A stretch of 64,000 bases of DNA from Paraburkholderia sabiae (GTDB lineage: Bacteria > Pseudomonadota > Gammaproteobacteria > Burkholderiales > Burkholderiaceae), in contig NZ_CP125295.1 in NCBI RefSeq assembly GCF_030412785.1, positions 2,542,001 to 2,606,000 of the forward strand, read 5' to 3'. Of this stretch, positions 3,094 through 64,000 are shown in pieces. The notes under the pieces were generated by a model. It saw only the letters and a list, made by a program, of their open reading frames with translations, searched no databases and was not told the origin of the DNA. Position numbers and translations under genes: made by a program. How positions within the stretch are numbered: the first letter of the stretch is position 1; the number at the start of each line of letters is the position of its first letter.

Positions 3094-3133
3094 TCGAAAG
3101 ACGAAGTCCCAGACCACAATCGAGGAGCGAGAC

Positions 3134-9700: not shown

Positions 9701-9746
9701 GAGAAAGCCTCGAATGGAATGAATTGCGGGGCGGCTGCCCGCTACG

Positions 9747-11030: not shown

Positions 11031-11433
11031 GGCATGTCTCCTCCGTGATCGAATATGGGACCGGTTCCCTGATCGCGCGCAATGCGGGCGACTTATGCGA
11101 TTGCGGCGCGCAGCGCATCGCCGTTCCACGGCACCCGCTCGCACGGCAGCAGTGTCAACGGCGTGGCGCCTCCGCCGGGCGCGCGCAGCAGCACGATGAA
11201 CTTCGCCGTGCGGTAGCCGCGCCGCACACCAGAATCCATCTGGCCTTACCAGATGCGACAAATTAAAATGCCACCGGTAAGTGGTCAAGCCAATTATCGG
11301 AAAATTCGGGAAATCCCGGGTTGGACGAACGTCCGCTGTCGCGCCGCGTCGTTCGTTTGCGGGCAGCACCCTTCGATCTACAATCGGCGCTCGCCCAACG
11401 GCGAATACCCGCGCCACCTCGTCAGGAAAGCTT
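11031..11433. promoter_or_regulatory. Divergent MFS/GntR control region with perfect inverted repeat
   Basis: This 403-base intergenic stretch has no convincing gene. It holds a perfect 7-base inverted repeat, CATCTGG at 11237-11243 and CCAGATG at 11249-11255 with a 5-base spacer. It also holds TGGTCAAGCCAAT at 11282-11294, the exact reverse complement of 405-417. The site at 405-421 ends in CCAGATG too, joining both motifs. They are good candidate operators for one or both FadR-type regulators, linking the two halves of the locus. Confidence 0.6.
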
Positions 11434-12153
11434 GTGACAGACAAACCCGCCGACCCTCGCCGCCTCTATCTGCAGATCGCGGAGAAGCTGCGCGATCTGA
11501 TCGCGCAGCCGGAGTTCGCGCCGAACGGCCGCTTGCCTTCTGAGCGCGCACTCGCGACAGCGCTTGCGGTGTCGCGCCCGTCGGTGCGCGAGGCGCTGGT
11601 TGCACTGGAACTGGAAGGGCTGGTCGAAATCCGCATGGGCTCCGGCGTCTACGTGTGCGCAACGCCGCCGGCGCACAGCAAGGAGCCGTTGTCGCGCGCC
11701 GAACTCGGCGACAGCCTGCTCGACATCATGCTTGCGCGCTGTGTGATCGAAGGCTCGATTGCGGCAAGCGTCGCACCGTTTTGCAAAGCGAAGGAGCTGA
11801 AGCACCTGCGCGAGCTGTACGACGAGATGCAGCACGAAGTTTCTTCGGGACGGATTCCCGTCGCCGCCGATCGCGCATTTCATCTCGCGATCGCGCAGAT
11901 GACCGGCAACGAGGTGCTCGTGCGCACCGTTAGCTCACTGTTCGATGCGCGACACAGCCCGCTGTCCGAAAAGCTGCGCGGCCATTTCGAAAACGAGAGC
12001 ACATGGGGCGCGGTTCCTGATGAGCATCGCCTGATCCTCGAAGCGCTCGAAGCACATGATCCGATCCAGGCTCAGGCGAGCATGCAGCGTCACCTGAAGA
12101 TGTCGCTGGAACGGGTGATCGCCGGCGAGCGGCCGAATGCGAAGCGGCGCTGA
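11434..12153 (+). CDS. FadR-subfamily GntR transcriptional regulator
   Basis: DNA-binding repressor/activator of 239 residues. The N-terminal winged helix contains LPSERALATALAVSRPSVRE and the wing motif IRMGSGVYV. The C-terminal FCD effector domain includes the metal-site type pattern DRAFHLAIAQMTGNEVL and a final histidine-containing helix. The GTG at 11434 follows GTCAGGAAAG and gives the usual length; earlier in-frame starts extend into the control region. It is divergent from the MFS-uxaA operon and likely regulates it in response to a hexuronate-pathway intermediate, as ExuR/UxuR do. Its recognition helix strongly resembles the partial regulator at the left edge. Confidence 0.88.
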   Translation: MTDKPADPRRLYLQIAEKLRDLIAQPEFAPNGRLPSERALATALAVSRPSVREALVALELEGLVEIRMGSGVYVCATPPAHSKEPLSRAELGDSLLDIMLARCVIEGSIAASVAPFCKAKELKHLRELYDEMQHEVSSGRIPVAADRAFHLAIAQMTGNEVLVRTVSSLFDARHSPLSEKLRGHFENESTWGAVPDEHRLILEALEAHDPIQAQASMQRHLKMSLERVIAGERPNAKRR

Positions 12154-12172
12154 AAACAACCTGCCCCTGGCT

Positions 12173-13105
12173 TTACAGGCGTTCAATCAGGCGCTGATCC
12201 CCCGCTGCGCAATACTGATGACACGCCGTACGCGCCGCATTCGCCGCGCCGTGCACGAACAGTGGCGCGTCCGAGCGTCGCGACATCGACACCACGATGG
12301 AAGGCGGCGAAGGCAGCAACGGTAACTCCACCACCTCGCCGCGCGCGATCAGATCGTCGACGAAAAGACGCGGTATCGCCGCCACGCCGAATCCATCACG
12401 CACGAGTTGCACGATCACCGAGATCGACGGCGAGCCCGTGATGCGCGTGTCCGCCAGCGGTACACCATTCGCGAGCGCCAGCTTGCCGACGATGTCCTCC
12501 AGCGCACGATGCGGCGCCGTTCCGCGCCCGAACGTCAGGATCGGATGACGCAGCACACGCTTGGCGAGCCCGCTGCGCGAAAGCGGCAGCAGACCCGCGC
12601 GCGCGATCCAGTGCACCGGATAGTTGGCGAGCGCATCGCACACCACGGATTCCTCGTCGCTGCCTTCCACGCGGATGATCAGATCAAGCTCTCCCGCCAT
12701 CAGACGCCGCTGCAACACCACGCTCACGTCCACGGCCAGTTCGACTTCGAGTTGCGGGAAGTCATCGGCGAGGCGTCGCATGTAATCGGCGAGCCAGCTA
12801 TGCACGACCGTCTCGATCACGCCGAGCCGCAGCTTGCCGCGCATCGCGCCTTCATGCGAGGCCGCCGCCTGCAACTGACGCGTCGCTTCCACCACGGCCT
12901 TCGCATAGCCCAGCAGATATTCGCCGTTCGCCGTGAGCCGGAAATCGCGGCTCTCGCGATCGACGAGCGTGGTGTGCAACTCGTCTTCCAGCGCCTTCAG
13001 CCGCTGCGAGATCGCAGCGGGCGTGGCGTGCAATGCGGTCGCCGTGGTGCGGAAGCTGCGCAGTTTGGCCAGCGTGACAAAAGTCTCGAGAAAGCGCGTA
13101 TTCAT
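12173..13105 (-). CDS. LysR-family transcriptional regulator
   Basis: 310 residues. The N-terminal LysR helix-turn-helix is clear: FLETFVTLAKLRSFRTTATA followed by ISQRLKALEDELHTTLVDR. The remaining sequence is the periplasmic-binding-like effector domain (GKLRLGVIETVVHSWLADYM onward). It is divergent from the UPF0317/MFS/oxoprolinase genes across 226 bases, the classic layout for a LysR activator and its target. The inducer is unknown but probably a substrate of that operon, such as 5-oxoproline or a hydantoin-like compound. The gene converges with the GntR gene at 11434, leaving 19 bases. Confidence 0.9.
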   Translation of the reverse strand: MNTRFLETFVTLAKLRSFRTTATALHATPAAISQRLKALEDELHTTLVDRESRDFRLTANGEYLLGYAKAVVEATRQLQAAASHEGAMRGKLRLGVIETVVHSWLADYMRRLADDFPQLEVELAVDVSVVLQRRLMAGELDLIIRVEGSDEESVVCDALANYPVHWIARAGLLPLSRSGLAKRVLRHPILTFGRGTAPHRALEDIVGKLALANGVPLADTRITGSPSISVIVQLVRDGFGVAAIPRLFVDDLIARGEVVELPLLPSPPSIVVSMSRRSDAPLFVHGAANAARTACHQYCAAGDQRLIERL

Positions 13106-13331
13106 AGGGCGAAGGCCGCCTGGGCGACGAAAGAAAGCGCTTCAAAAATATCGACGTGATTCGGGAAAACCCGCGAAGTCGTTAAGAAATTCTATCCATG
13201 CGATGCAAATAAAACTAGTTGGCGTCAAATTTTCTTCTTTTCTATGCTTTGTTTGAACGCAGCAACAATGTTTCACGCATCTCACTTCATAGCAGACGAA
13301 CCAGAGCAACCCGCACGAGCACGCCGACACC

Positions 13332-14105
13332 ATGACTCCATTCGAATTCCGCCAGGCTGTCCGCCATCGCGACTTCCGCGGTCCGACGGCCGGCCATTGC
13401 GGCGACTACGCGCAGGCCAATCTCGCGATCCTGCCCGCCGCGCACGCGCACGATTTTCTGCGCTTCTGCCATGCGAATCCGAAGCCGTGTCCGCTACTGG
13501 GCGTGGGTGAACCGGGCGATTTCCGCGTGCCGGTGCTCGGGCGCGATATCGACATCCGCACCGACGTGCCCGCCTACAACATCTATCGCGACGGCAAGCT
13601 GAGCGAGAGCGTCGAATCGATCGAGGCGCTCTGGCAAGACGATTTCGTCGTTTTCGCAATCGGCTGCTCGTTCTCGTTCGAGCAGATGCTCGCAAAGGAA
13701 GGCATCGGGCTTCGCCACGTCGAAGAAGGCCGCAACGTGCCGATGTACCGCACCACGATCGCTAACCATCCCGCAGGCGTTTTCGGCGGCGAACTCGTCG
13801 TGTCGATGCGCCCGTTGCGCGGCGCCGACGCGATCCGCGCCGTGCAGATCACGAGCCGCTTTCCGGGCGTGCATGGCGCGCCCGTGCATATCGGCGATCC
13901 GGCGGAACTCGGAATCGCCGATCTCGCGCGCCCTGAGTTCGGCGATGCCGTGACGATCCGCGCAGGCGAGCTGCCCGTCTACTGGGCGTGCGGTGTGACG
14001 CCGCAAACCGCGCTGATGGCCGCGAAGCTGCCGCTCGCCATCGCGCACGCGCCGGGCCACATGCTGATGACGGACATCACCAACGCGTCGCTGGCCATCT
14101 TCTGA
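13332..14105 (+). CDS. UPF0317/DUF1445 (YcsI-type) putative hydro-lyase
   Basis: 257 residues, cytoplasmic, matching the UPF0317 family along its full length: start [20 protein letters not shown], middle [10 protein letters not shown] and [11 protein letters not shown], end [10 protein letters not shown]. These proteins are annotated as putative hydro-lyases. The mammalian D-glutamate cyclase DGLUCY carries a UPF0317 region, and bacterial relatives often neighbour 5-oxoprolinase genes. Here a fused oxoprolinase-like gene lies two genes downstream. A role in producing or processing 5-oxoproline or a related lactam fits, but the reaction is not established by sequence. Target of the divergent LysR by position. 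Confidence 0.85.
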
Positions 14106-14280
14106 CCGTTCCAGCGCCGCGCATGGCGCGACATCGACCGTCGCCGCGCCGCCGCCGGTTCAAGGCATCACCCACAGTATCTCGAAGCCATCCGGCCATC
14201 CGGCCCGGAGGGAATGACGCATCCCTACGCTCCTGCGCGGCTTCGCTCGTTACTCATGCGTCTATCCACGGGAGCAACAG

Positions 14281-15588
14281 ATGGACAGCAAGACACTCAC
14301 GGCAAACGTCGACGATGACGCCGACATGAACGCAACGGCCGACACGCCAGCGCTTTCCTGGTACGCCGAAGCCAGTCCACGCGCCCGTCGCGCGTTCTGG
14401 AGTTGCAAGGTCGGCTACATGCTCGACGGCATGGATACGCAGATGCTGTCCTTCGTCATTCCGACACTCGTCGCGACCTGGGGCATCTCGCTCGCCGACG
14501 CCGGCTTCATCGGCACCATGACGCTGCTGTCCTCCGCGCTCGGCGGCTGGATCGCGGGGATTTTGTCCGATCGCATCGGCCGCGTGCGTACGTTGCAGCT
14601 CACCGTGCTGTGGTTCGCGGTGTTCACCGCGTTGTGCGGTCTCGCGCAGAACTACGGCCAGTTGCTCGCGGCGCGCGCGCTGATGGGCTTCGGCTTCGGC
14701 GGCGAATGGACGGCGGGTGCCGTGCTGATCGGCGAAGTGATCCGCGCACGCGATCGCGGCAAGGCGGTCGGTCTCGTTCAGTCGGGCTGGGCGCTCGGCT
14801 GGGGCATGGCCGCCCTGCTCTACGCCGTGCTGTTTTCCGTGATGGCGCCGGAAATCGCGTGGCGCACCTTGTTCCTGATCGGACTCGTGCCGGCGCTGCT
14901 CGTGCTCTTCATTCGCCGCTACGTGAAGGAACCCGAAGTATTCGAGCACGCAAAAGTCCGTCAGCAGCACACGCAGGATAAGCCTCGCTTTACTGAAATC
15001 TTCTCACCCAGACTGCTTTCGACGACGCTGCGCGCCGCGCTGCTCACGACGGGCGCACAGGGCGGCTACTACGCGATCACGACGTGGCTGCCGACCTTTC
15101 TCAAGACCGAGCGTCATCTGACCGTGATGGGCACGGGCGGCTACCTCGCGATGATCATCGCGGGTTCGTATGTGGGGTATCTGTGCAGCGCCTGGCTCAC
15201 GGACCGCATTGGCCGCAAACCGAACTTCATTCTGTTCGCGCTGGGTTCGATGGCGATTGCCTTCGCGTACACCTCGTTGCCGCTGACGAATGCGTCGATG
15301 CTGTGGCTCGGCTTTCCGCTCGGTTTCTTTGCGTCGGGCATTTTCTCCGGCATGGGCGCATTTCTCACCGAACTCTTTCCGACTCGCGTACGCGGCTCCG
15401 GCCAGGGGTTTTGCTACAACGTCGGCCGCGCGATCGGCGCATTGTTCCCCGTGCTGATCGGCACGCTGTCGAGCCGCTTCGGCCTCGGCACGAGTATCGG
15501 CCTGTTTGCGGTGGCTGCGTATGGCGTACTGATCGTCGCCGCGCTCACGCTGCCCGAAACACGAGGCCGCGAACTCGAAGCTGCCTGA
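14281..15588 (+). CDS. MFS transporter (sugar/aromatic-acid proton symporter type)
   Basis: 435 residues, 12 predicted membrane helices. Conserved major-facilitator loop motifs are visible: [13 protein letters not shown] between helices 2 and 3, [17 protein letters not shown] near helix 4-5, and the C-half copy DRIGRKPNF. It lies between the UPF0317 gene and the oxoprolinase-like gene on the same strand, so it probably imports their substrate. It is strikingly similar to the MFS protein at 24481 (shared [31 protein letters not shown]), so the two operons may handle related compounds. A 175-base gap precedes it, with ACGGGAGCAACAG just upstream of the ATG. Confidence 0.88.
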
Positions 15589-15635
15589 ACTGCACCTTGC
15601 GCACCGTATTGAATTTTTCGCATCAGGACCACGAC

Positions 15636-19271
<3,636 letters not shown>

Positions 19272-19442
19272 CTCCCGACCCGTGGCGGTTGCCATTAGCG
19301 CGGTCCAGGCGTCGCGCGCCGGGATGTCGGGCTGTCGGGCGTGAGTAAGGCACAGCGGAAGAGGATCGGAGAAGAGTCAGAGAAAAGTCAGTCTTGCAGG
19401 TCCGCTCGGCTATCATGGCGATCCTCTCCGAAGTAGCTTCTT

Positions 19443-21104
<1,662 letters not shown>

Positions 21105-51858: not shown

Positions 51859-52161
51859 TTAAGCCGCGGGTTGCAACCTGCCATCGATGCGACGGTTCAC
51901 ACCGAGGGGATTCTCCGTCTTGACCGCGTCAGGCAGCAACGCATCCGGCAGATCCTGATAACTCACCGGCCGCAGAAACCGGTCGATCGCAAGGGTGCCG
52001 ACCGGGGTCGAGCGGCCATCTGCCGTAGACGGATACGGGCCTCCGTGGACCATCGCATGGCCGATTTCGACACCCGTACCGAACCCGTTCACCAGCAGCC
52101 TGCCGGCGCGGCGCTCGAGCGCGGGCAGGAAGCGCTTCGCTTCGGCATAGTCCGCTTCCAC
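51859..52161 (-). pseudogene. C-terminal remnant of alpha-ketoglutaric semialdehyde dehydrogenase
   Basis: About 95 residues match the end of KGSADH/2,5-dioxovalerate dehydrogenases: [20 protein letters not shown], then [31 protein letters not shown] and the terminal [12 protein letters not shown] complete enzyme has about 525 residues, so the cofactor-binding part and catalytic cysteine are missing. Upstream in frame the sequence loses similarity. It lies in a short patch with other debris between DUF3422 and DUF1330. Not functional. Confidence 0.75.
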
Positions 52162-52378: not shown

Positions 52379-52669
52379 TCAGGCGCTTAATCCTTCGACG
52401 ATCGCCACCTGCGCGATGCAATGCCCATCGCGCTTGAGTTTGGCTGACTGATATTCGGGCGAGTTGTAGCAGGCCAGCGCCGTTTCCAGATCGCTGAACT
52501 GGATCACCACATGGCGCTCGAACGACTCCCCCTCGAGCGATTTCGATGCGCCACCACGCGCCAGGAAAACGGCGCCGAACTTCTTGAACGCCAGCGGCGC
52601 GATGTCGGTGTAATCCTTGTATTTCACCGGATCAAGCACGGTGACATGGGCGATCCAATATGCAGTCAT
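52379..52669 (-). CDS. DUF1330 family protein
   Basis: 96 residues, full length for DUF1330, a small dimeric alpha/beta-barrel fold. Signature features: AYWIAHVTVLDPVKYKDYTD at the start, FLARGGASKSLEGE, and VVIQFSDLETALACYNSPEY. AGGAG precedes the ATG at 52669. It is divergent from the monooxygenase operon across 207 bases and may belong to the same regulon. Function unknown; relatives are often found in catabolic clusters. Confidence 0.88.
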   Translation of the reverse strand: MTAYWIAHVTVLDPVKYKDYTDIAPLAFKKFGAVFLARGGASKSLEGESFERHVVIQFSDLETALACYNSPEYQSAKLKRDGHCIAQVAIVEGLSA

Positions 52670-52814
52670 CTCTGCTCCTTTTCCCTTTCATTCATCCATT
52701 GACCCGAAGCCGCGCATGCGCGCGGACATCGGCGACACCCTCACTCTTCCACCACCGCGCCCGCCAAACCCCTTTGTTTTCAAGGCCCCGGCAACCTTTC
52801 AGGGTTAACACGCA

Positions 52815-52839
52815 TGGTACGCCGTACTATGGCATACCA
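52815..52839. promoter_or_regulatory. Operator-like inverted repeat before the DUF1185 operon
   Basis: TGGTACGCC at 52815-52823 and GGCATACCA at 52831-52839 form a 9-bp inverted repeat with one mismatch and a 7-base spacer. It lies 38 bases upstream of the first gene, where a repressor would block transcription of the operon and possibly of the divergent DUF1330 gene. TGG/CCA arms suit GntR or similar regulators, but no regulator gene is adjacent. Confidence 0.5.
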
Positions 52840-52876
52840 CAATTCTCCCATCATTAACTGAACGTGGGAAGTTGCA

Positions 52877-53479
52877 ATGAGCCTGATTCGCAAATCCATC
52901 CTCCATGTCGAGAACGTGTTCGTCGACGGCGGCAAAGAGGCGGCAAAGCCGTTGAAGCTGATCGGCGCAGTGGCCGTCATCAAGAACCCCTGGGCAGGCC
53001 GCGGCTTTGTCGAGGACCTGTCGCCGGAGATTCGCGCCATCGCGCCGCAACTCAGCGAGCACCTGACGAAACTCATCATCGACGAAGCCGGTTCGGGCGA
53101 AGCGGTCGAGGCATTCGGCAAGAGCGCGATCGTCGGCCTGGATGGCGAACTGGAACACGCGTCGGCGCTGATCCACACGCTGCACTTCGGCAACACCTAT
53201 CGCAAGGCTGTCGGCGCCAAGTCGTATCTGGCCTTTAACAACACGCGCGGCCCGGCGAATGCGCCGCTGCTGATCCCGATGATGGACAAGAACGACGAAG
53301 GCCGCCGCTCGCACTACCTGACGCTTCAGTTCGCGATTCCCGACGCACCGGCCGCTGACGAAATCGTGATCGCAATCGGCGGCGCAACGGGCGGCCGTCC
53401 GCATCACCGCATCGGCGATCGTTATAAAGACCTTGCAGAGCTTGGAAATGATGTCAACAACCCTGCCGCTGTCAAATAA
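52877..53479 (+). CDS. DUF1185 (amino acid synthesis) family protein
   Basis: 200 residues matching PF06684 along the full length: LIRKSILHVENVFVDGGKEA, AVAVIKNPWAGRGFVEDLSP, ALIHTLHFGNTYRKAVGAKS and GGATGGRPHHRIGDRYKDL. Structures of the family show a chorismate-mutase-like fold with unknown activity, proposed to act in amino-acid or small-molecule metabolism. It is the first gene of a six-gene operon; its end overlaps the hydrolase gene by about 30 bases. Conserved presence with flavin monooxygenase genes would suggest an isomerase, hydrolase or ligand-handling step. Confidence 0.9.
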   Translation: MSLIRKSILHVENVFVDGGKEAAKPLKLIGAVAVIKNPWAGRGFVEDLSPEIRAIAPQLSEHLTKLIIDEAGSGEAVEAFGKSAIVGLDGELEHASALIHTLHFGNTYRKAVGAKSYLAFNNTRGPANAPLLIPMMDKNDEGRRSHYLTLQFAIPDAPAADEIVIAIGGATGGRPHHRIGDRYKDLAELGNDVNNPAAVK

Positions 53480-54266
53480 TCGCGTCGCGCACTATCTCGA
53501 ACGCGGGACGGGCGAGCCGCTGGTCCTGATTCACGGCGTCGGCATGCAGGCGGGTGCCTGGTATCCGCAGATCGATGATCTGTCGTCCGACTTCCGGGTG
53601 ATTGCCGTCGACATGCCGGGCCACGGCGAGAGCACCGCATTGGACGCGAACGCCGGCTTGCAGGATTTCGTGAACTGGGCGATCGAGTTCATCGAAGCGC
53701 TGAACGTCGGCCCCGTCAATCTCGCGGGCCATTCGATGGGTTCGTTGATTGCGGCTGGCGTGGCTGTCACGCGTCCTGATCTGACAAAGCGCGTGGCGGT
53801 GCTGAATGGCGTGTATCGCCGGACAGCCGAAGCGCGCGACGCCGTGCTGCAACGGGCGGCCGAACTGCGCTCGGGTTCCATCGACATCGAGACGCCGCTC
53901 AAGCGCTGGTTCAATGCCGAAGAAGCGCAACGCATCGCCGCGCAGAAGGTCGAGTCCTGGCTGAAATCCGTCGATCTCGCCGGCTACGCCACGGCGTACA
54001 CGGCCTTCGCAAAGGGCGACGAGGTGTATGCCGACGGTTGGAACAAGATTGCCTGCCCCGCTCTCGTATTGACGGGTTCGGACGACCCGAACTCGACGCC
54101 CGAGATGACGAGACAGATGGCCAGTGCCGCCCACAGCGGCAACGCCGTCGTGATCGAAAACGAGCGGCACATGGTGAATCTGACCGCACCGGACGAAGTC
54201 AATCGTGCGCTGCGTGCCTGGTTACAGACCGAGCCCGTGGCCGAATCAATGAAGTCGGAGGCGTGA
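53448..54266 (+). CDS. Alpha/beta-hydrolase
   Basis: About 272 residues. The oxyanion motif is VLIHGVGMQAGAW, the nucleophile elbow GHSMGS near residue 100, the acid in LTGSDDPNS and the catalytic histidine in ENERHMVNLT. Start is at one of two adjacent ATGs (53448 or 53451), both inside the end of the DUF1185 gene, so the genes are translationally coupled. Probably hydrolyses an ester, enol-lactone or C-C/C-N bond formed by ring oxygenation. The next gene starts 1 base after its stop. Confidence 0.92.
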   Translation: MMSTTLPLSNNRVAHYLERGTGEPLVLIHGVGMQAGAWYPQIDDLSSDFRVIAVDMPGHGESTALDANAGLQDFVNWAIEFIEALNVGPVNLAGHSMGSLIAAGVAVTRPDLTKRVAVLNGVYRRTAEARDAVLQRAAELRSGSIDIETPLKRWFNAEEAQRIAAQKVESWLKSVDLAGYATAYTAFAKGDEVYADGWNKIACPALVLTGSDDPNSTPEMTRQMASAAHSGNAVVIENERHMVNLTAPDEVNRALRAWLQTEPVAESMKSEA

Positions 54267-54267
54267 C

Positions 54268-55191
54268 ATGAGCCAGCAACCCGCCCAGATCAACACCCGC
54301 GAATTGCGCGACGCATTCGGCGCCTTCATGACAGGCGTCACGATCGTTACCACGACACGCGACGATGGCCAGCCGCTTGGCTTCACCGCGAACTCGTTCT
54401 CGTCCGTGTCGCTGGACCCTGCCTTGCTGCTGGTCAGCATCGCGAAGACGTCGGGCAACTATCAGACGTTCTCCACCACGGGGCACTTCGCGATCAACAT
54501 CCTCGCGGAAAGCCAGAAGGATCTGTCCAATACGTTCGCGCGGCCTAGCGAAGACCGCTTCGCCAACGTGGACTGGCAGATGAGCGCGATCGGAAACCCG
54601 CTGCTCGGCGAGGTCAGCGCATGGTTCGACTGCACGACCCATGCGGTGATCGATGCGGGCGATCACGCGCTCATCATCGGCAAGGTCGAGGCATTCCACT
54701 CCGCCGGTTACGCAGGCCTCGGCTATTACCGTGGCGGCTATTTCACGCCCGCCAAGGTCTCCGCCGAAGTCATCGCGGGTCCGAAGGTCATCGTCAGCGC
54801 GATCATCGCGCGCGACGACAAGGTCCTGCTGACGCGCTCCGCGGACAACAAGTGGGGCCTGCCGTCGAAGCAGATTGGCTCCGAAGGCGCCGACAAGGCG
54901 CTCGCCGATCTCTTCGCAAAGTACCAGCCTGATGCATCGGCCAGTTTCATCTACTCGGTCTACAACAACACCGAAACGTCGTACCAGTACATTTCGTTTC
55001 TCTGCAGCGCGCCCGACGAGGCCGCCGTCTCGGGCGAATTCGTGAGCCTCGACGACATCGAGCCGGCTCAGTTCCAGGACAGTGCGCTCGCCAGCATGCT
55101 CGGGCGCTACCGCAAGGAAAGCCAGTTGAAGAGCTACGGCATGTACTACGGCGACCACAGCAGCGGCACGGTCCGCCCGCTTCTTTCCTGA
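54268..55191 (+). CDS. Flavin reductase fused to a degenerate Nudix-like domain
   Basis: 307 residues in two parts. Residues 1 to about 165 are a flavin reductase-like domain: RDAFGAFMTGVTIVTTTRDD, then GFTANSFSSVSLDPALLLVS and ETSGN-type turn KTSGNYQTFS. Residues 170-307 resemble a Nudix fold: VIVSAIIARDDKVLLTRSAD followed by KWGLPSKQIGSEG. The catalytic Nudix box (REx2EE) is absent, replaced by ADKALADLFAKY. The reductase should supply reduced FMN to the adjacent luciferase-like oxygenase; the second domain may bind a nucleotide-like ligand or the partner. Starts 1 base after the hydrolase stop. Confidence 0.87.
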   Translation: MSQQPAQINTRELRDAFGAFMTGVTIVTTTRDDGQPLGFTANSFSSVSLDPALLLVSIAKTSGNYQTFSTTGHFAINILAESQKDLSNTFARPSEDRFANVDWQMSAIGNPLLGEVSAWFDCTTHAVIDAGDHALIIGKVEAFHSAGYAGLGYYRGGYFTPAKVSAEVIAGPKVIVSAIIARDDKVLLTRSADNKWGLPSKQIGSEGADKALADLFAKYQPDASASFIYSVYNNTETSYQYISFLCSAPDEAAVSGEFVSLDDIEPAQFQDSALASMLGRYRKESQLKSYGMYYGDHSSGTVRPLLS

Positions 55192-55201
55192 AAGGTATCC
55201 A

Positions 55202-56239
55202 ATGCGCTTTTCCCTTTTCGCTCACATGGAGCGCGTCTCCGACAAGACGAGCCAGAAGCAGCTTTACGAAGAGATGGTCGAGTTGTGCCAGATCGCGGAC
55301 CGTGGCGGCATGCACGCCGTCTGGACGGGCGAGCATCACGCGATGGACTTCACGATCGCGCCGAATCCGTTCCTCAATCTCGTCGACCTGGCGAACAAGA
55401 CGAAGAACGTCCGGCTCGGCACGGGCACGGTGATCGCACCGTTCTGGCACCCGATCAAGCTCGCGGGCGAAGCCGCGATGACCGACATCATCACGAACGG
55501 CCGTCTCGAACTCGGCATCGCGCGCGGCGCCTATTCGTTCGAGTACGAGCGCCTGATGCCGGGCCTCGATGCATGGGGCGCGGGTCAGAGAATGCGCGAA
55601 CTCATTCCCGCCGTGAAGAAGCTGTGGGAAGGCGATTACGCGCACGAAGGCGAGTTCTGGAAATTTCCGTCGACCACTTCCTCGCCGATGCCGCTGCAGC
55701 AGCCGCATCCGCCCATCTGGGTCGCCGCGCGCGATCCGAACAGCCACGAGTTCGCCGTCGCGAACGGCTGCAACGTGCAGGTCACGCCGCTGCATCTCGG
55801 CGATGAGGAAGTCGAGAAGCTGGTCGGCCACTTCAACGCTGCGTGCGAGAAGTTCAGCGACGTGCCGCGTCCGCAGATCATGCTGCTTCGTCATACCTAT
55901 GTCGCGAGCAGCGAAGACGACGCGCAGGTCGCCGCCGACGAAGTGAACGTGTTCTACAACTACTTCGGCGCATGGTTCAAGAACGAGCGGCCCGTCAGCC
56001 GTGGCCTGATCAAGACGCTGAGCCAGGAAGAAATCAAGGCTCACCCGTTCTACACGCCGGAAGCGATGCGCAAGAACAACGTCATCGGCACGCCGGAAGA
56101 AGTGATCGCGCGCCTGAAGGCCTACGAGGCACTCGGGTTCGACGAGTACTCGTTCTGGATCGACACCGGCATGAGCTTCGAGCGCAAGAAGGCGTCGCTC
56201 GAAAGGATGATCAACGACGTGATGCCTGCCTTTAAGTGA
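55202..56239 (+). CDS. Luciferase-like FMN-dependent monooxygenase
   Basis: 345 residues, bacterial luciferase-like TIM barrel using reduced FMN. Features: FSLFAHMERVSDKTSQKQLY at the start, HHAMDFTIAPNPF near residue 45, LGTGTVIAPFWHPIKLAGEA, LELGIARGAYSFEYERL and the late PEEVIARLKAYEALGFDEYS. AAGGTATCCA precedes the ATG, 10 bases after the reductase gene. Two-component enzymes of this type open N-heterocycles (RutA on uracil, PyrA on pyridine) or oxidise other small molecules. It is the likely committing step of this operon; the substrate is unknown. Confidence 0.93.
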   Translation: MRFSLFAHMERVSDKTSQKQLYEEMVELCQIADRGGMHAVWTGEHHAMDFTIAPNPFLNLVDLANKTKNVRLGTGTVIAPFWHPIKLAGEAAMTDIITNGRLELGIARGAYSFEYERLMPGLDAWGAGQRMRELIPAVKKLWEGDYAHEGEFWKFPSTTSSPMPLQQPHPPIWVAARDPNSHEFAVANGCNVQVTPLHLGDEEVEKLVGHFNAACEKFSDVPRPQIMLLRHTYVASSEDDAQVAADEVNVFYNYFGAWFKNERPVSRGLIKTLSQEEIKAHPFYTPEAMRKNNVIGTPEEVIARLKAYEALGFDEYSFWIDTGMSFERKKASLERMINDVMPAFK

Positions 56240-56251
56240 GGTTCTGATTCC

Positions 56252-57721
56252 ATGAGTTTCGATTTCCAGCTGTATATCGACGGCCAGTTCGAGCCGGGCG
56301 CCGCCACCTTCGGCAGCGTGGACCCGTCCACGGGCGAAGTCTGGGCGCAGATGCCCGAAGCCCGCACGGACGAAGTGAACCGCGCCGTGGCAGCGGCCAG
56401 TCGCGCGCTCGGCGACGCCGCGTGGGCCAGACTGACCGCGTCGGCGCGCGGAAAGCTGCTGTACAAACTCGCGGATCTTCTCGAGAAGGCAGCGCCGCGG
56501 CTCGCTGAAATCGAAACGCGCGATACGGGCAAGATCATCCGCGAGACGTCGAGCCAGATCGCGTATGTCGCCGAGTACTACCGCTATTACGCCGGTATCG
56601 CCGACAAGATCGAAGGCAGCCACGTCCCCGTCGACAAGCCCGACATGCAGGTCTGGCTCGACCGGCAACCCGTCGGCGTGGTGGCCGCTATCGTTCCGTG
56701 GAATAGCCAGTTGTTCCTCTCCGCCGTGAAGCTCGGCCCGGCGCTCGCCGCCGGCTGCACGGTCGTGCTCAAGGCATCGGAGGAAGCGCCCGGACCGCTA
56801 CTCGAATTCGCAAGGCTCGTGCATGAAGCGGGCTTTCCGCCCGGCGTCGTGAACGTGATCACGGGCTTCGGCCCGGAATGTGGCGCGGTGCTGAGCAGCC
56901 ATCCCGACGTGGACAAGGTCGCCTTCACGGGCGGCCCCGACACGGCGCGGCATATCGTCAGAAACACGGCGAACAATCTCGCGAAGGTGTCGCTGGAACT
57001 GGGCGGCAAATCGCCGTTCATCGTTTTCGCCGATACGGATATTCAGAGCGCGGTCAACGCGCAGGTCGCGGCCATCTTCGCCGCGAGCGGCCAGAGTTGT
57101 GTCGCGGGTTCGCGGCTGCTGATCGAGGCGTCGGTGAAGGACCAGTTCCTTGCGTTGCTGGTGGAACGTGTCTCGCGCATTCGCGTCGGTGCGCCGGGTG
57201 AGATGGAAACGGAATACGGTCCGCTGTGCACGGAGCGGCAACGTCGACTCATTCAGTCGGTTGTCGAAAGTTCCGTGCGTCAGGGCGCGAAAGTGCTTGC
57301 GGGCGGGAAGCCGATCGAGCGCGCGGGCTACTACTACGCGCCGACGATTCTGGATTGCACGGGCGTCTCAAACGCAGACAGCATCACGACCGAACTCTTC
57401 GGGCCGGTCCTGTCCGTCGATACCTTCACGACCGAACAGGAAGCGATCGACAAGGCGAACAGCACGGCTTACGGGCTCGCCGCCGGCATTTTCACCACCA
57501 ATCTCACGCGCGCCCACCGCGTGTCGAAGCGCGTTCAATCGGGCATCGTCTGGATCAACACGTATCGGGCGGTGTCGCCGCTCGTGCCGTTCGGCGGCTT
57601 CGGCTTGTCGGGGCACGGTCGCGAAGGCGGCTTCGCCGCAGCGCTCGAATACACGACAACGAAGTCCGTGTGGCTTCGCACGTCGGACGAACCGATCAGC
57701 GATCCGTTCGTCATGCGCTAA
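56252..57721 (+). CDS. Aldehyde dehydrogenase
   Basis: 489 residues, complete. The catalytic cysteine is in ASGQSCVAGSRLLI near residue 287, the general base glutamate in SLELGGKSPFIVF, and the cofactor region in FTGGPDTARHIVRNTANNLA. It begins 12 bases after the monooxygenase. It would oxidise the aldehyde released by ring opening to an acid, as SSADH-type enzymes do in pyridine and similar pathways. Chain length and carboxylate preference of the substrate are not readable. Confidence 0.93.
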   Translation: MSFDFQLYIDGQFEPGAATFGSVDPSTGEVWAQMPEARTDEVNRAVAAASRALGDAAWARLTASARGKLLYKLADLLEKAAPRLAEIETRDTGKIIRETSSQIAYVAEYYRYYAGIADKIEGSHVPVDKPDMQVWLDRQPVGVVAAIVPWNSQLFLSAVKLGPALAAGCTVVLKASEEAPGPLLEFARLVHEAGFPPGVVNVITGFGPECGAVLSSHPDVDKVAFTGGPDTARHIVRNTANNLAKVSLELGGKSPFIVFADTDIQSAVNAQVAAIFAASGQSCVAGSRLLIEASVKDQFLALLVERVSRIRVGAPGEMETEYGPLCTERQRRLIQSVVESSVRQGAKVLAGGKPIERAGYYYAPTILDCTGVSNADSITTELFGPVLSVDTFTTEQEAIDKANSTAYGLAAGIFTTNLTRAHRVSKRVQSGIVWINTYRAVSPLVPFGGFGLSGHGREGGFAAALEYTTTKSVWLRTSDEPISDPFVMR

Positions 57722-57838
57722 TCGGGCGCGTGTTCACTGCGGTATCGACTCACGGCCGTAAAGGCTGTGCTTCGTCACGCCCATCGCGTTCATCGCGGGG
57801 GCGACGCGGCACAGCCTGGCAATAAAGATGGAGACATG

Positions 57839-59251
57839 ATGACAAACCCGTCGAACGACAACAGCGTTCTGACCATCGAAAGCAACTCGATCGAGTATGT
57901 TCCCCCAGAGAACCGGCACGGTAAGCCAGCCGATCTCTTCACCCTGTGGTTCTGCACGAATGTCGCGCCGCTCGCGGTCATTTCCGGCGCGACGTCCGTA
58001 CTGGTCTTTCACCTCGACCTGATCAGCGCCATTCTCGCGATCGTGGCCGGGCAATTCTTCGGCGCCATTTTCCACGCCCTGACTTCCGCGCAGGGGCCGC
58101 TCGTCGGTGTGCCGCAGATGATCCAGAGCCGCGCGCAGTTCGGCCGCTATGGATCGCTGCTCGTGGTGGGTTTCACGACGCTGATCTATCTCGGCTTCTT
58201 CGTTTCGAACATCATTCTCGCGGGCAAGACGCTCAACGCCGCTATCCCTGTCGTTCCCATTCATATCGCAACGGTGCTGGGCGCGATTCTGGCGACCCTG
58301 GTCGGCGTGATCGGCTATCACTTCATCCATCGTTTCAACAAGATCGGTGCGTGGTTCATGGGCAGCGCGCTCCTGATCGGCCTGATCCTGATGGCGCCCG
58401 GTCTCGACGCTCGCGTTCTTCAGCAAGGCCACTTCGATCTGTCAGGCTGGTTCGCGATGTTCGGACTCTGCGCGGTGTGGCAAATCAGTTTCGCACCGTA
58501 CACGTCCGACTATTCGCGCTATCTGCCGACCACCACCGGCTTCCGCAGAACGTTTGCGTTCACGTACTTCGGCACGTCACTGGGAACGATCTTCGCGTTC
58601 GTGTTCGGCGTCGTGGCCGTGAGCACGGGCCACGCCACCGACGCGATGCAGGCGATTCGCACGCAAACGGGCATGTTCGGCTACGTGCTGATCTTTCTGT
58701 TTCTCGTCAACATCATTGGCCATAACGGCATGAATCTGTACGGCGCAGTGCTGTCGTTCATCACGGCTGCACAAACGTTCCGTCCGCACTGGGTGCCTGG
58801 CCGCAATGTTCGCGTCGCGGTGTCGACGGTCGTGCTGGTGGCTTCCACTGCGACCGCGTTGTGGGCGTCGAGCAACTTCATCGCCATCTTCCTCAATGCG
58901 ATCTTCGCGATGCGCATCGTGCTAGCGCCTTGGATCGCGATCAACCTCGTCGACTTCTATCTCGTCAGCAAGCGGCACTATCACGTAGCGGAAATCGTCA
59001 GTAGCAACGGCGGCGTGTACGGCTCGTTCAATGTCAAGGCAATCGCGCTGTACGTCTTCGGCATTGCGGTTCAGGTGCCGTTCATGGAAGAGAGCTTCTT
59101 TCACGGCCCGCTGGCTTCGATCCTCGGCGGTGCGGACGTGTCGTGGATGGTCGGCCTCGTTGCGACGGCGCTCGCGTACTACCTGCTCTCGCCGAACGAC
59201 GGCTCGCGGGCGCCTCGCCGTTCACCGGCTGGCGCGACGGCCTCCGAATAA
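57839..59251 (+). CDS. NCS1 permease (cytosine/purine-type)
   Basis: About 470 residues, 12 predicted helices. Nucleobase-cation-symport-1 features: PADLFTLWFCTNVAPLAVIS near the N-terminus, GVPQMIQSRAQFGRYGSLL, and SFAPYTSDYSRYLP near helix 6. NCS1 members import nucleobases, hydantoins, allantoin or pyridoxine-type rings, so the operon's substrate is probably a nitrogen heterocycle. ATG 57839 follows GGAG by 5 bases; ATG 57836 is adjacent. It is last in the operon, 117 bases after the aldehyde dehydrogenase, followed by a terminator. Confidence 0.92.
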   Translation: MTNPSNDNSVLTIESNSIEYVPPENRHGKPADLFTLWFCTNVAPLAVISGATSVLVFHLDLISAILAIVAGQFFGAIFHALTSAQGPLVGVPQMIQSRAQFGRYGSLLVVGFTTLIYLGFFVSNIILAGKTLNAAIPVVPIHIATVLGAILATLVGVIGYHFIHRFNKIGAWFMGSALLIGLILMAPGLDARVLQQGHFDLSGWFAMFGLCAVWQISFAPYTSDYSRYLPTTTGFRRTFAFTYFGTSLGTIFAFVFGVVAVSTGHATDAMQAIRTQTGMFGYVLIFLFLVNIIGHNGMNLYGAVLSFITAAQTFRPHWVPGRNVRVAVSTVVLVASTATALWASSNFIAIFLNAIFAMRIVLAPWIAINLVDFYLVSKRHYHVAEIVSSNGGVYGSFNVKAIALYVFGIAVQVPFMEESFFHGPLASILGGADVSWMVGLVATALAYYLLSPNDGSRAPRRSPAGATASE

Positions 59252-59323: not shown

Positions 59324-60898
59324 TTATGCGCGCTGCTCAACATGCTCCGCGACGACGAACACCGAGACCGCGTGCTTCAGATCCTTTGCGTGGTCTTCGA
59401 GCGACTGCGCCGCCGCTGCGGCCTGCTCGACGAGCGCCGCATTCTGCTGCGTGACCTTGTCCATCAGATTCACCGCCTGATTCACCTGCTCGATGCCGCG
59501 GCTCTGTTCGTCCGATGCCGCCGCGATCTCGCTCACGATGTCGGCCACCTGTCTGATCGCGAGCTTCACTTCCGTCATCGTGCTGCCTGCGTCCTGCGCC
59601 TGCCTCGCCCCGCTCTGGATCGTCTCCACCGACGTGCCGATCAGTTCCTTGATCTCGCGCGCTGCCGTTGCCGAGCGCTGCGCGAGCGCGCGCACCTCGT
59701 TCGCGACGACGGCGAACCCGCGTCCCTGATCGCCTGCCCGCGCGGCTTCGACGGCCGCGTTCAAGGCCAGGATGTTCGTCTGGAAAGCGATACCTTCGAT
59801 CACGGCGGTGATGTCGGAGATCTCGTCCGAGCTGCCGCTGATACGGCCTATCACCTCGACCATGCCGCGCACCGCGTCGTTGCCCGTGTCGGCGATGTCG
59901 GATGCACGCGTCGCCAGCGTGCTTGCCTGACGTGCGTTGTCCGCATTCTGGCGCACGGTTTCCGTCAGTCGCGTCATGCTCGCCGCCGTCTCCTCCAGCG
60001 AACTCGCCTGCTCTTCGGTGCGCGACGACAGGTCGAGATTGCCTGCGGCGATCTCGCTGGACGCGGAAGCGATGCGATCGGCGCTCGAACGAACGCCGCC
60101 TACGATGCTCGCGAGACTTTCGTTCATCGTTTTCATCGCCAGCATCAGTTGCCCCGTTTCGTCCGCCGATGTCGCCTCGATGCGATTCGTCAGATCGCCG
60201 TCGGCGACGCAGCTTGCTACCGACACCGCTTCTTTCAATGGTCGCGAGATCGAGCGCGAAAGCCAACGCCCGGCGAGAATCGATGCGAGCACGGCGATCA
60301 GTGAAGCGCTGAGCACACTGACATAAATCGACGCGCGCAAGGTATCGAGTTGTGCGCGACTCGCCAGCACGCGCTGTTGTTCGTAGCTTTCCAGTTTTCC
60401 GACCGCTGCGATCAGCTTTTCGGTTCCCAGATACGAACCGAAGCTCTCCGTCAACGCAGAAAGATCGCCCACGCCGACCGAAAACGCATCCACCTTCTTA
60501 CGCATTTCCACCAGCGGGTCGACGACGGTTTTCAGCCAAGCGTTGTATTCCTGTTGGCCCTCCCGGGCTAATGAGGCGCCTTCGGGCGTCGCATCCATCT
60601 GGCTGATCTTCATCAGTTTGCTATCGAAGTCAGCACGGTGATCGATGATCCACTTCCCGTGCGACGCCTTCCCGTTCAGGTTGTTCGCCAGCACCGCCCA
60701 GATGATGTTCAGGTAGTCGCCCGTGCCGTCCTTCAACAGCAGCAGCATCTGCTCCGATGCCTCGATCTCTTTCTGCTTCTGGTCGATCGCCCGGACGCTG
60801 TAGAGACAGATGCATGTGCTGACGATAAAAGCAAAAATCGCGCTGGAAAACGCGACTGAAATCTTGCTCCCGATAGGCAGGTCTTTTATGGTTTTCAT
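59324..60898 (-). CDS. Methyl-accepting chemotaxis protein
   Basis: 524 residues. A cytoplasmic [17 protein letters not shown] start leads into a first membrane helix ([13 protein letters not shown]). A periplasmic 4-helix-type sensor spans about residues 40-190, with a second helix ([17 protein letters not shown]) near 195. A HAMP domain follows, then the signalling domain with the hairpin tip [20 protein letters not shown] and [17 protein letters not shown]. It starts 42 bases after the transporter on the same strand and may be co-transcribed with the transporter and dehydrogenase, hinting that it senses their substrate. No C-terminal CheR-docking pentapeptide is seen. Confidence 0.95.
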
Positions 60899-60940: not shown

Positions 60941-62305
60941 CTACGCCGCGCGTTGGCGCGGCACCAGCAGCACAGCAATGGCAGCCATCAGCCCCACTGC
61001 CGCAAAGACATAGAAGTTCCACTCGAGCGCCACGCCGCCTTGCGCCAGAGCGCCGCCGATCAACGGTCCCGCGATCGCGCCAAACCGCCCGATACCAAGC
61101 GCCCAGCCGATTCCCGTCGCCCGGTTGCGGGCCGGGTAGTACCGCGTGATGTACGCGCCGAGCAGCATCGTGTTGCCGATCGCGCCCACGCCCGCGAGCC
61201 CGACCAGCACGTACGTCAGCACGACGTCATGTGTCAGTGGCAACGCGCACAGGCTCGCCGCCGCGAGCAGATAAAGCGCGCTCACCACCCGCTTCGAACC
61301 GACACGGTCAGCTACCGCGCCGCCGAAGAGTGAGCCCACAGCGGCGGCGAGATTGAGCGTCATGAGCAGCGCGAGACTCGATCCGAGCGGATAGCCCGCC
61401 CTGCGCATCAGTTGCGGCAGCCACGTGCTCAGGCCATACAGCAGAAGCAGGCCCATGAACATCGCGAGCCAGAATGCCAGCGTGGCGAATAAGAAGTGAC
61501 GATCGAACAGTGAGCGCACCGGCGCATGAGGTTGTTGATGAGTGACACGCTGTTGTTCTTCGTGCTCGCTATCGAGCGCCGTGTGACGGATTCGCAGCGC
61601 ACTCGCCAGCGACCGCGCCTCGGCAAAGCGCTTCCTCGCGATCAGGAAATCGAGCGACTCCGGCAACGAACGACCCACTGCGAACACCAGAAGCAGCGGT
61701 AGCGCGCCGAGACCGAACAGCCATCGCCAGCCGTGCGACGGCAGCCAGGCGATCGCCAGCAGCGCGACCAGAATGCCGCCTAGCGAATAACCCGTGTAGA
61801 TCAACGCATAGTTGAACGAGCGACGATGCGACGGCGAGTATTCGACCGTAAGCGCTGCCGCAGTCGGCACGACACCGCCCAGTCCCAGCCCGCCAATTAC
61901 ACGCGCAACGACGAACGCCATCGGCGTAGGCGCGAGTGCCGCCGCACCCATCATCGCCGAGAACAGCGCCACGCTGCCGAGCAACACGCGGCGACGTCCA
62001 ACCAGGTCGCTCACCGTACCGGCGAACATGGCACCGATCATCATGCCCGCCAGCGAGCAGCTCGCGATTGCGCCCAACTGGAACGGCGAAAGAGACCAGT
62101 TCGTGCCGTGCGTCAGCATCGGCAGCACAGCGCCGTATATCGCGACGTCGTAACCTTCGGCGAGGATCATCGCCAGACAGATCGCGACGACGCGTATCGT
62201 CACCGGCAGCGGTATCGCGACCGAGCCGGCTTCATTTTCTTCCGGCGCTGCGCCGTGCAAACGGTGCGCGCCTGTTTCATTGTTAGTGGAAGACCACGTA
62301 CTCAT
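60941..62305 (-). CDS. MFS transporter, AAHS (aromatic acid/proton symporter) type
   Basis: 454 residues from ATG 62305, with AGGGGG upstream; TTG 62311 is a marginal alternative. Twelve predicted helices. Motifs: ILAEGYDVAIYGAVLPML (the DxxD-like helix-1 motif of AAHS carriers), GTVSDLVGRRRVLL, and the C-half copy GAVADRVGSKRVV. Family substrates are benzoate, 4-hydroxybenzoate and related acids. It follows the succinate-semialdehyde dehydrogenase-like gene by 36 bases. Substrate may be an aromatic or short-chain acid feeding that enzyme. Confidence 0.9.
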   Translation of the reverse strand: MSTWSSTNNETGAHRLHGAAPEENEAGSVAIPLPVTIRVVAICLAMILAEGYDVAIYGAVLPMLTHGTNWSLSPFQLGAIASCSLAGMMIGAMFAGTVSDLVGRRRVLLGSVALFSAMMGAAALAPTPMAFVVARVIGGLGLGGVVPTAAALTVEYSPSHRRSFNYALIYTGYSLGGILVALLAIAWLPSHGWRWLFGLGALPLLLVFAVGRSLPESLDFLIARKRFAEARSLASALRIRHTALDSEHEEQQRVTHQQPHAPVRSLFDRHFLFATLAFWLAMFMGLLLLYGLSTWLPQLMRRAGYPLGSSLALLMTLNLAAAVGSLFGGAVADRVGSKRVVSALYLLAAASLCALPLTHDVVLTYVLVGLAGVGAIGNTMLLGAYITRYYPARNRATGIGWALGIGRFGAIAGPLIGGALAQGGVALEWNFYVFAAVGLMAAIAVLLVPRQRAA

Positions 62306-62341
62306 GTTCAAGCGCCCCCTTTTGCACTGCGTTATGTCAGG

Positions 62342-63802
62342 TCAAACCGCCATGCAGAGATATTTGATAACGACGTAATCGTCGATGCCGTAGTGCGAAC
62401 CTTCGCGTCCCATGCCCGACTGCTTCACGCCTCCGAACGGCGCGACCTCGTTCGAGATCAGACCCGTGTTCACGCCGACCATGCCGTACTCCAGCGCTTC
62501 CGCCACCTTCCAGACGCGAGCGAAGTCGCGGCTATAGAAATACGCGGCGAGGCCGAACTCGGTGTCGTTGGCGAAGCGGATCACTTCGTCGTCGCTGCTG
62601 AATCTGAAGAGCGGCGCGAGCGGGCCGAACGTCTCGTCCTTCGCGACTTTCATCGCGGGCGTCACGTCGCGAAGCACCGTCGGTTCGAAAAAGCCGTGGC
62701 CGAGCGCGTGGCGTTTGCCGCCCGTGACGACGGATGCACCTTTCGCGAGCGCATCGGCGATATGCGCTTCGACCTTCTGCACGGCCGCTTCGTTGATGAG
62801 CGGCCCTTGCGCGACATCGGGCTCGGTGCCGCGTCCGACCTTCAGACGGTCGACAGCGGCCGCGAGCTTCTCGGCGAACTGGTCATACACGGCGTCGTGC
62901 ACGTAGAAGCGATTCGTGCAGACACACGTTTGCCCGCTGTTGCGATACTTCGATGCGATGGCGCCTTGCACGGCTGCATCGATGTCCGCATCGTCGAACA
63001 CGATGAACGGCGCGTTACCGCCGAGTTCGAGCGAGACCTTTTTGACTGTCGCAGCACACTGGCTCATCAGCACTCGGCCGACCTGGGTCGACCCCGTGAA
63101 CGACAGCTTGCGCACGACCGGGTTCGACGTCAGTTCGCCGCCGATCGCCTTCGGGTCGCCCGTCACGACGCTGAACACGCCAGCAGGCACGCCCGCGCGT
63201 TCGGCCAGTACCGCCAATGCCAGCGCGGAGAACGGTGTGGCCTCGGCGGGCTTGACGACGATCGTGCAGCCCGCCGCGAGCGCGGGACCGACCTTGCGCG
63301 TGATCATCGCGGCCGGAAAATTCCACGGCGTGATCGCGGCGCACACACCGATCGGCTCTTTCACCACAACAATGCGCTTGTCGCTCGCCGGCGTCGGAAT
63401 CGTATCGCCGTATACGCGCTTGCCCTCTTCGGCGAACCATTCGAAGAACGACGCCGCATAGCCGATTTCACCGCGCGCCTCGGCGAGCGACTTGCCTTGC
63501 TCGGTCGACAGGATCAGCGCGAGGTCATCGGCGTTTTCCATCATCAGATCGTGCCATTTGCGCAGAATCGCGCCGCGCTCTTTCGCGGTCTTCTTGCGCC
63601 ACGCGGGCCAGGCCGCGTTCGCCGCGTCGATTGCCTGACGCGTTTCCGGCGCGCCCATCAAAGGAACATTGCCGACGATCTCGCCCGTCGCGGGATCGTT
63701 AACCTCGAACGACTCTGCGCTGAGGGCGTTCTGCCATTCGCCGTTGACGTAAGCCTGTTGTCGAAGCAGCAGCGGGTCCTTCAACCGGGTTCCCAATTCC
63801 AT
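62342..63802 (-). CDS. gabD: Succinate-semialdehyde dehydrogenase family (GabD-like)
   Basis: 486 residues. Catalytic cysteine in NSGQTCVCTNRFYVHD near residue 288, with the second cysteine two positions on that marks GabD-type redox control. The base glutamate is in SLELGGNAPFIVFDD, and cofactor contacts in WNFPAAMITRKVGPALAAGC. The end GREGSHYGIDDYVVIKYLCM is characteristic of GabD. Converts succinate semialdehyde to succinate, or a related semialdehyde. Start MELGTRLKDPLLLRQQAYVN is standard. Leads a minus-strand operon with the AAHS transporter and perhaps the chemoreceptor. Preceded by the GntR end. Confidence 0.93.
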   Translation of the reverse strand: MELGTRLKDPLLLRQQAYVNGEWQNALSAESFEVNDPATGEIVGNVPLMGAPETRQAIDAANAAWPAWRKKTAKERGAILRKWHDLMMENADDLALILSTEQGKSLAEARGEIGYAASFFEWFAEEGKRVYGDTIPTPASDKRIVVVKEPIGVCAAITPWNFPAAMITRKVGPALAAGCTIVVKPAEATPFSALALAVLAERAGVPAGVFSVVTGDPKAIGGELTSNPVVRKLSFTGSTQVGRVLMSQCAATVKKVSLELGGNAPFIVFDDADIDAAVQGAIASKYRNSGQTCVCTNRFYVHDAVYDQFAEKLAAAVDRLKVGRGTEPDVAQGPLINEAAVQKVEAHIADALAKGASVVTGGKRHALGHGFFEPTVLRDVTPAMKVAKDETFGPLAPLFRFSSDDEVIRFANDTEFGLAAYFYSRDFARVWKVAEALEYGMVGVNTGLISNEVAPFGGVKQSGMGREGSHYGIDDYVVIKYLCMAV

Positions 63803-63854: not shown

Positions 63855-64000
63855 TCAGCCCGCGCGTTTCAGCGTCAGGTGTTGCTGTCCGTCGAGCAAC
63901 AGGTTCCTCGCGATTTCCAGCACGCGGTTGATGTGGCTGATGGCAGCGTCGCGTGCGGCGGCCTCGTCCTTCGCCCTGATTGCGGCGAGCACCTGACGCA
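63855..64000 (-). CDS. GntR-family (FCD) regulator, C-terminal end
   Basis: The last 48 residues of a gene continuing beyond base 64000. The sequence RQVLAAIRAKDEAAARDAAI with a following HINRVLEIARNLL is the final helix pair of an FCD effector domain. The tail ends in LKRAG at TGA 63855-63857. The winged-helix part is outside the window. Same strand as and directly upstream of the GabD-like gene, so it is probably the operon's regulator. Confidence 0.75.
   Translation of the reverse strand, partial: RQVLAAIRAKDEAAARDAAISHINRVLEIARNLLLDGQQHLTLKRAG

Follow-up and report, generated by a model that had tools for sequence, protein, structure and literature searches.

A probable trigonelline catabolic (tgn) operon in Paraburkholderia sabiae and a second, diverged tgn-type operon elsewhere in its genome

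We analyzed a 64-kb stretch of the Paraburkholderia sabiae genome (the window, to whose positions all coordinates without a locus name refer) in which an earlier note, made from the sequence, had pointed out an undescribed-looking operon for the oxidative opening of a nitrogen heterocycle (positions 52379 to 59251). The cluster is very probably (roughly 0.92) the catabolic operon for trigonelline (N-methylnicotinate), tgn. The operon is thus a known pathway in another host, not an undescribed one: it matches the Acinetobacter tgn operon gene for gene, and this gene set has already been characterized there for a known substrate, trigonelline. The pathway was reportedly worked out in Acinetobacter baylyi. 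The uptake of an N-heterocycle, flavin-dependent ring opening, hydrolysis and aldehyde oxidation that the note proposed hold up in outline by homology, but the claim of novelty does not. All seven gene families named in it were found in their places with strong Pfam scores, and the tight spacing was as claimed: the hydrolase gene overlaps the DUF1185 gene, and the subsequent gaps among the first five genes are 1, 10, and 12 bases (Table 1).

The identification stems from a tblastn search of plasmid records with the oxygenase, in which 1195 records matched. The ninth best match, in Acinetobacter sp. PK01 (84% identity), is annotated "tgnB: flavin-dependent trigonelline monooxygenase oxygenase component" (RefSeq, NZ_CP094644.1). 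RefSeq labels three of the PK01 orthologues tgnA, tgnB, and tgnC, and they stand in the same order as in the window, with the same flanks. The full PK01 order is DUF1330 and GntR (both on the minus strand), an amino acid synthesis family protein (that is, DUF1185), alpha/beta hydrolase, tgnA, tgnB, tgnC, cytosine permease, a hypothetical protein, succinate-semialdehyde dehydrogenase, and a carboxymuconolactone decarboxylase (CMD) family protein. For A. baylyi, the comparison locus came from type strain DSM 14961 (L049) and not from ADP1; identities to the window proteins were 54% (DUF1330), 80% (DUF1185), 69% (hydrolase), 64% (reductase), 83% (oxygenase), 78% (aldehyde dehydrogenase), 58% (NCS1 permease), and 61% (semialdehyde dehydrogenase). 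In an oxygenase tree of 40 rows (the window plus 39 of 100 extracted sequences), the window fell into a 13-row clade (support 100/99). Its companions there are four Acinetobacter rows, among them A. baylyi and the annotated tgnB, as well as Xanthomonas, Lampropedia, and other Burkholderiaceae. The window has a TgnB-orthologous oxygenase, adjoining tgnA and tgnC in conserved order, the hydrolase and DUF1185 genes upstream in the operon, and a linked semialdehyde dehydrogenase gene (62342 to 63802).

We then examined how the gene set is kept among related loci. A scan of genome contigs with the oxygenase gave at least 577 confirmed relatives, of which we used the best 80, A. baylyi DSM 14961 included. 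Presence was counted at set identity thresholds in flanks of up to 9 kb; some loci were cut by contig ends, and any gene counted as missing may be located outside these stretches. On this basis, DUF1185, the aldehyde dehydrogenase, and the oxygenase (the selecting query itself) were present in all 80 loci, the hydrolase in 78, and the reductase in 74, with all five core genes together in 74 of 80. The surrounding genes were more variable: DUF1330 was found in 69 loci, NCS1 in 45, the semialdehyde dehydrogenase in 38, the methyl-accepting chemotaxis protein (MCP) in 6, and the MFS transporter in 5.

The proposed pathway would begin with import of trigonelline by the NCS1 permease, a role suggested by the position of its gene. 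TgnA would then supply reduced flavin, with which TgnB and O2 would open the pyridinium ring to N-methylformamido-methylene hydroxybutyrolactone or its semialdehyde form. PMC8269262 states that bacterial trigonelline degradation begins with ring opening by TgnA/TgnB, and both it and PMC9151330 assign TgnA/TgnB or tgnAB to trigonelline. RefSeq annotates tgnC as a dehydrogenase of (Z)-2-((N-methylformamido)methylene)-5-hydroxybutyrolactone. TgnC would oxidize the ring-opened lactone or semialdehyde, reportedly to a dicarboxylic acid. This acid is said to be hydrolyzed to succinate semialdehyde, methylamine, formate, and CO2, a step that the alpha/beta hydrolase (presumably tgnD) may catalyze, and the nearby dehydrogenase would convert succinate semialdehyde to succinate, the reported end of the pathway. 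These late steps fit the hydrolase and gabD genes found here. The substrate in P. sabiae, its transport, and the regulation of the operon are inferred.

Several observations weigh against this assignment. The match is one of sequence, and identities ranging from 64% (reductase) to 83% (oxygenase) leave the substrate unfixed. The genome also contains another tgn-type operon, which means that one of the pair might act on a different compound. The importer role of the NCS1 permease is weak: 35 of the 80 loci had no NCS1 gene at the threshold within the stretch examined, and Paraburkholderia sprentiae carries the operon without one. In some relatives, other carriers occupy the place of the permease (e.g., an ABC transporter in Gemmobacter).

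The two operons in one genome, with oxygenases 63% identical to each other, would be compatible with a window operon that has another N-alkylated pyridine as its main substrate (e.g., N-methylisonicotinate or 1-methylnicotinamide) and a second operon that serves for trigonelline. We consider this improbable, as the window oxygenase groups with those of A. baylyi and the annotated tgnB (83 to 84% identity), whereas all three fall within a 34-row clade (support 100/99) from which the oxygenase of the second operon is excluded. A new pathway with Rut-like chemistry, acting on a ring such as a nucleobase, hydantoin, or lactam, would fit the NCS1 permease and the two-component flavin-dependent oxygenase, but it is scarcely credible given the orthology to tgn and the NCBIfam cutoffs, on which we rejected Rut-like and other unknown ring pathways: the reductase scored 84.8 bits against the RutF model (cutoff, 254.75), and the hydrolase scored 61.3 bits against RutD (cutoff, 238.5). 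The RutA model was not among the 25 families listed of 28 matched.

Trigonelline remains the favored substrate of the window operon, which we call type A. The second operon (type B) lies on another contig of the same genome (L003, G000:C2:630000-649999, positions 8901 to 19839). Its order is GntR, DUF1185, hydrolase, reductase, oxygenase, and aldehyde dehydrogenase, followed by what appears by eye to be an ABC transporter and by another GntR gene. Compared with the window set, its DUF1185 is 67% identical, the hydrolase 43%, the reductase 41%, the oxygenase 63%, and the aldehyde dehydrogenase 67%. Among 200 Burkholderiaceae genomes, 20 had an oxygenase match at an E value of 1e-100: type A (91 to 100% identity to the window oxygenase) was present in 10 and type B (62 to 65%) in 11, and only the genome of the window had both. 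We considered a homarine operon as a relative of the second operon; none was described in the titles and abstract openings of the three papers that a literature search gave. Just past the window end (L162, extended positions 63999 to 69964), a stretch is 84% identical at the DNA level to the type B transporter and regulator genes of L003, and it is followed by a C-terminal remnant of a type B reductase (148 residues, 72% identity) and then by a second GntR gene. To judge from these matches, the stretch is a decayed B operon adjoining the A operon. Further on in L162, an open reading frame resembles, by eye, an IS110-type transposase.

Both types also adjoin each other elsewhere. In four Caballeronia loci (L019, L020, L021, and L024), an A operon lacking its reductase stands back to back with the five-gene B set. 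The A operon of L024 also lacks the hydrolase, and in L019 the match to the B-type DUF1185 is split into two segments, so this gene is possibly disrupted. Burkholderia sp. H160 (L026) has an A set without the reductase and with a hydrolase match of only 36 residues, together with a B-type reductase and hydrolase; no B-type oxygenase or dehydrogenase was found in the stretch examined. In L009, the reductase is missing, and there are no B genes in the stretch examined. The A-type oxygenase, dehydrogenase, and DUF1185 were kept in all six loci. Because the A sets without reductase or hydrolase keep these three genes, we read the pattern as suggesting that the reductase and hydrolase may be exchangeable between the A and B pathways, with the oxygenase, dehydrogenase, and DUF1185 being specific to each. 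The pattern calls for some caution: the loci were picked by their oxygenase, L009 and L024 share a strain name, and the independent losses are few. In addition, losses internal to the operon do not reach DUF1185, which is its first gene.

The earlier note expected that DUF1185 would newly gain a pathway role. A link of this kind is already in print: one paper ties DUF1185 by homology to TgnF, said there, second-hand, to stimulate succinate-semialdehyde oxidation (PMC7913881). The equation of DUF1185 with tgnF rests on this second-hand statement. The A. baylyi operon also holds the CMD family gene, which is relevant to the question of which gene is tgnF. In DUF1185, K82 is invariant and S145 nearly so. 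Because a lysine and a serine are conserved, we considered a cyanuric acid hydrolase/barbiturase fold; no such structure was among the 50 structure matches listed for DUF1185, which carries no weight against the idea because the alignments covered only the top chains from Foldseek. Comparisons with chorismate mutase and RidA structures gave only middling Z scores, and we treat a function of either kind as a hypothesis.

We also put forward a tentative explanation that we think more likely wrong than right. In it, DUF1185 would be a catalytic, pathway-specific enzyme of N-heterocycle catabolism rather than an accessory, acting on the ring-opened intermediate, for instance by hydrolyzing or isomerizing the N-methyl enamine before succinate semialdehyde is reached. 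RutC is presumed to act likewise on aminoacrylate in the Rut pathway. Burkholderiaceae, in this explanation, would have parallel tgn-type pathways A and B for different ring substrates, able to share reductase and hydrolase, each with its own oxygenase, aldehyde dehydrogenase, and DUF1185.

We also surveyed the neighborhoods of DUF1185 in 40 regions, hand-picked to favor different genera and hence not random. Neighbors were clustered for the 22 regions without the oxygenase or the full partner set, using a crude open reading frame caller and with one representative scanned for some clusters. Of 17 neighbor-cluster proteins scanned, 7 had no Pfam hit at 1e-10. Diverged DUF1185 genes occurred in tandem pairs in seven regions without a luciferase-like oxygenase match (L125, L126, L127, L132, L133, L137, and L140). 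By cluster membership, molybdenum-hydroxylase genes were present in some of these tandem regions (L125, L127, and L137) and in other DUF1185 regions.

A conserved palindrome points to a shared mode of regulation. Between positions -80 and -30 of DUF1185, TGGTATACCA was found exactly in 64 of 85 loci, which are related and not independent, and with at most one mismatch in 83; the two exceptions, L021 and L024, have two mismatches each. The remaining sequence of these loci gives an expectation of 0.0002 exact sites and 0.0023 sites with at most one mismatch per locus. In the window, TGGCATACCA is the sole site in the 64 kb with 0 or 1 mismatch to TGGTATACCA, and the same TGGCATACCA stands about 60 bases before DUF1185 in the second operon (L003 positions 9773 to 9782, counted by eye). 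The palindrome is likely an operator common to both operon types, and the GntR/FCD regulators beside the A. baylyi operon and beside the operons described here are its likely readers. In the window, such a regulator would probably act at TGGCATACCA upstream of DUF1185.

Table 1. Genes and putative sites of the P. sabiae tgn-type cluster (window positions)
Feature	Position	Strand	Evidence
DUF1330 protein, divergent	52379..52669	-	Pfam PF07045, E 1.4e-30
Putative operator TGGCATACCA, one base off palindrome TGGTATACCA	52830..52839		Proposed GntR/FCD site
DUF1185/AA_synth protein, TgnF-like according to PMC7913881	52877..53479	+	PF06684, E 8.1e-67; 224.5 bits (cutoff, 27)
Alpha/beta hydrolase, proposed for ring-opened acid	53448..54266	+	Pfam, 2.2e-26; 69% to A. 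baylyi
tgnA, flavin reductase with extra C-terminal part	54268..55191	+	Flavin_Reduct, 1.1e-42; 67% to Acinetobacter sp. PK01 tgnA (RefSeq)
tgnB, luciferase-like oxygenase	55202..56239	+	Bac_luciferase, 2.1e-56; 84% to RefSeq tgnB; 83% to A. baylyi; tree
tgnC, aldehyde dehydrogenase	56252..57721	+	Aldedh, 8.5e-160; 78% to RefSeq tgnC; 78% to A. baylyi
NCS1 permease, proposed trigonelline importer	57836..59251	+	Transp_cyt_pur, 3.6e-45; 58% to same-place A. baylyi homologue
MCP, possibly for the same compound	59324..60898	-	Pfam; same neighbor in P. sprentiae
MFS transporter, aromatic acid/H+ symporter-like	60941..62311	-	NCBIfam TIGR00895, 321.6 bits (below cutoff, 418.55); same neighbor in P. 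sprentiae
Succinate-semialdehyde dehydrogenase (gabD/tgnE-like), proposed last step	62342..63802	-	Pfam Aldedh; 94% to P. sprentiae gabD; 61% to A. baylyi
GntR/FCD regulator, 3' end; gene runs past window	63855..64000	-	L162 positions 2856 to 3563

The cluster extends beyond the end given to it earlier by the MCP, MFS transporter, and succinate-semialdehyde-dehydrogenase-like genes, all on the minus strand. For the hydrolase, ATG at 53448 is the more likely start over TTG at 53433, judging from the A. baylyi orthologue, and for the permease, ATG at 57836 (leaving a gap of 114) is more likely than GTG at 57767. The C-terminal part of the flavin reductase (residues about 170 to 307) had no Pfam match; the solved structure 3rh7 covers residues 9 to 305 of 307 (E value, 1.8e-78). 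Upstream of the cluster, at 51874 to 52152 on the minus strand, a 93-residue C-terminal fragment of an aldehyde dehydrogenase (64.5% identity to a full-length relative at L003 positions 2258 to 3841) looks like a gene remnant.

The tgn identity turns a puzzle into a prediction: P. sabiae, a soil bacterium, should grow on trigonelline, which plants make and which is a relative of vitamin B3. The loci that lack the A reductase or hydrolase yet keep DUF1185 suggest that genetics could show in a simple way whether DUF1185 is indispensable.

Compared with known systems, the window shares with the A. baylyi tgn locus the genes and their order from the divergent DUF1330 through the NCS1 permease. A. 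baylyi differs in having a GntR gene between DUF1330 and DUF1185 and, downstream on the same strand, a gene without a Pfam hit, the semialdehyde dehydrogenase gene, and the CMD family gene; in the window, a GntR gene is found past gabD, which is itself encoded on the opposite strand. The PK01 locus likewise shares the gene order and an oxygenase of 84% identity, but it is plasmid-borne and has its semialdehyde dehydrogenase and CMD family genes on the operon strand. In P. sprentiae, the same trio of MCP, MFS, and gabD genes (the last annotated as such) comes after the aldehyde dehydrogenase gene, and the NCS1 gene is absent there. Two solved DUF1185 structures, 3byq (BB2672) and 2qtp (SPO0826), are 33 to 35% identical to the window protein. 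The Rut system similarly combines a flavin reductase, a luciferase-like oxygenase, and an alpha/beta hydrolase in one operon, and the analogy drawn to it earlier stands only at the level of logic; the window reductase and hydrolase, however, fall far below the RutF and RutD cutoffs, and a Rut substrate has no sequence support.

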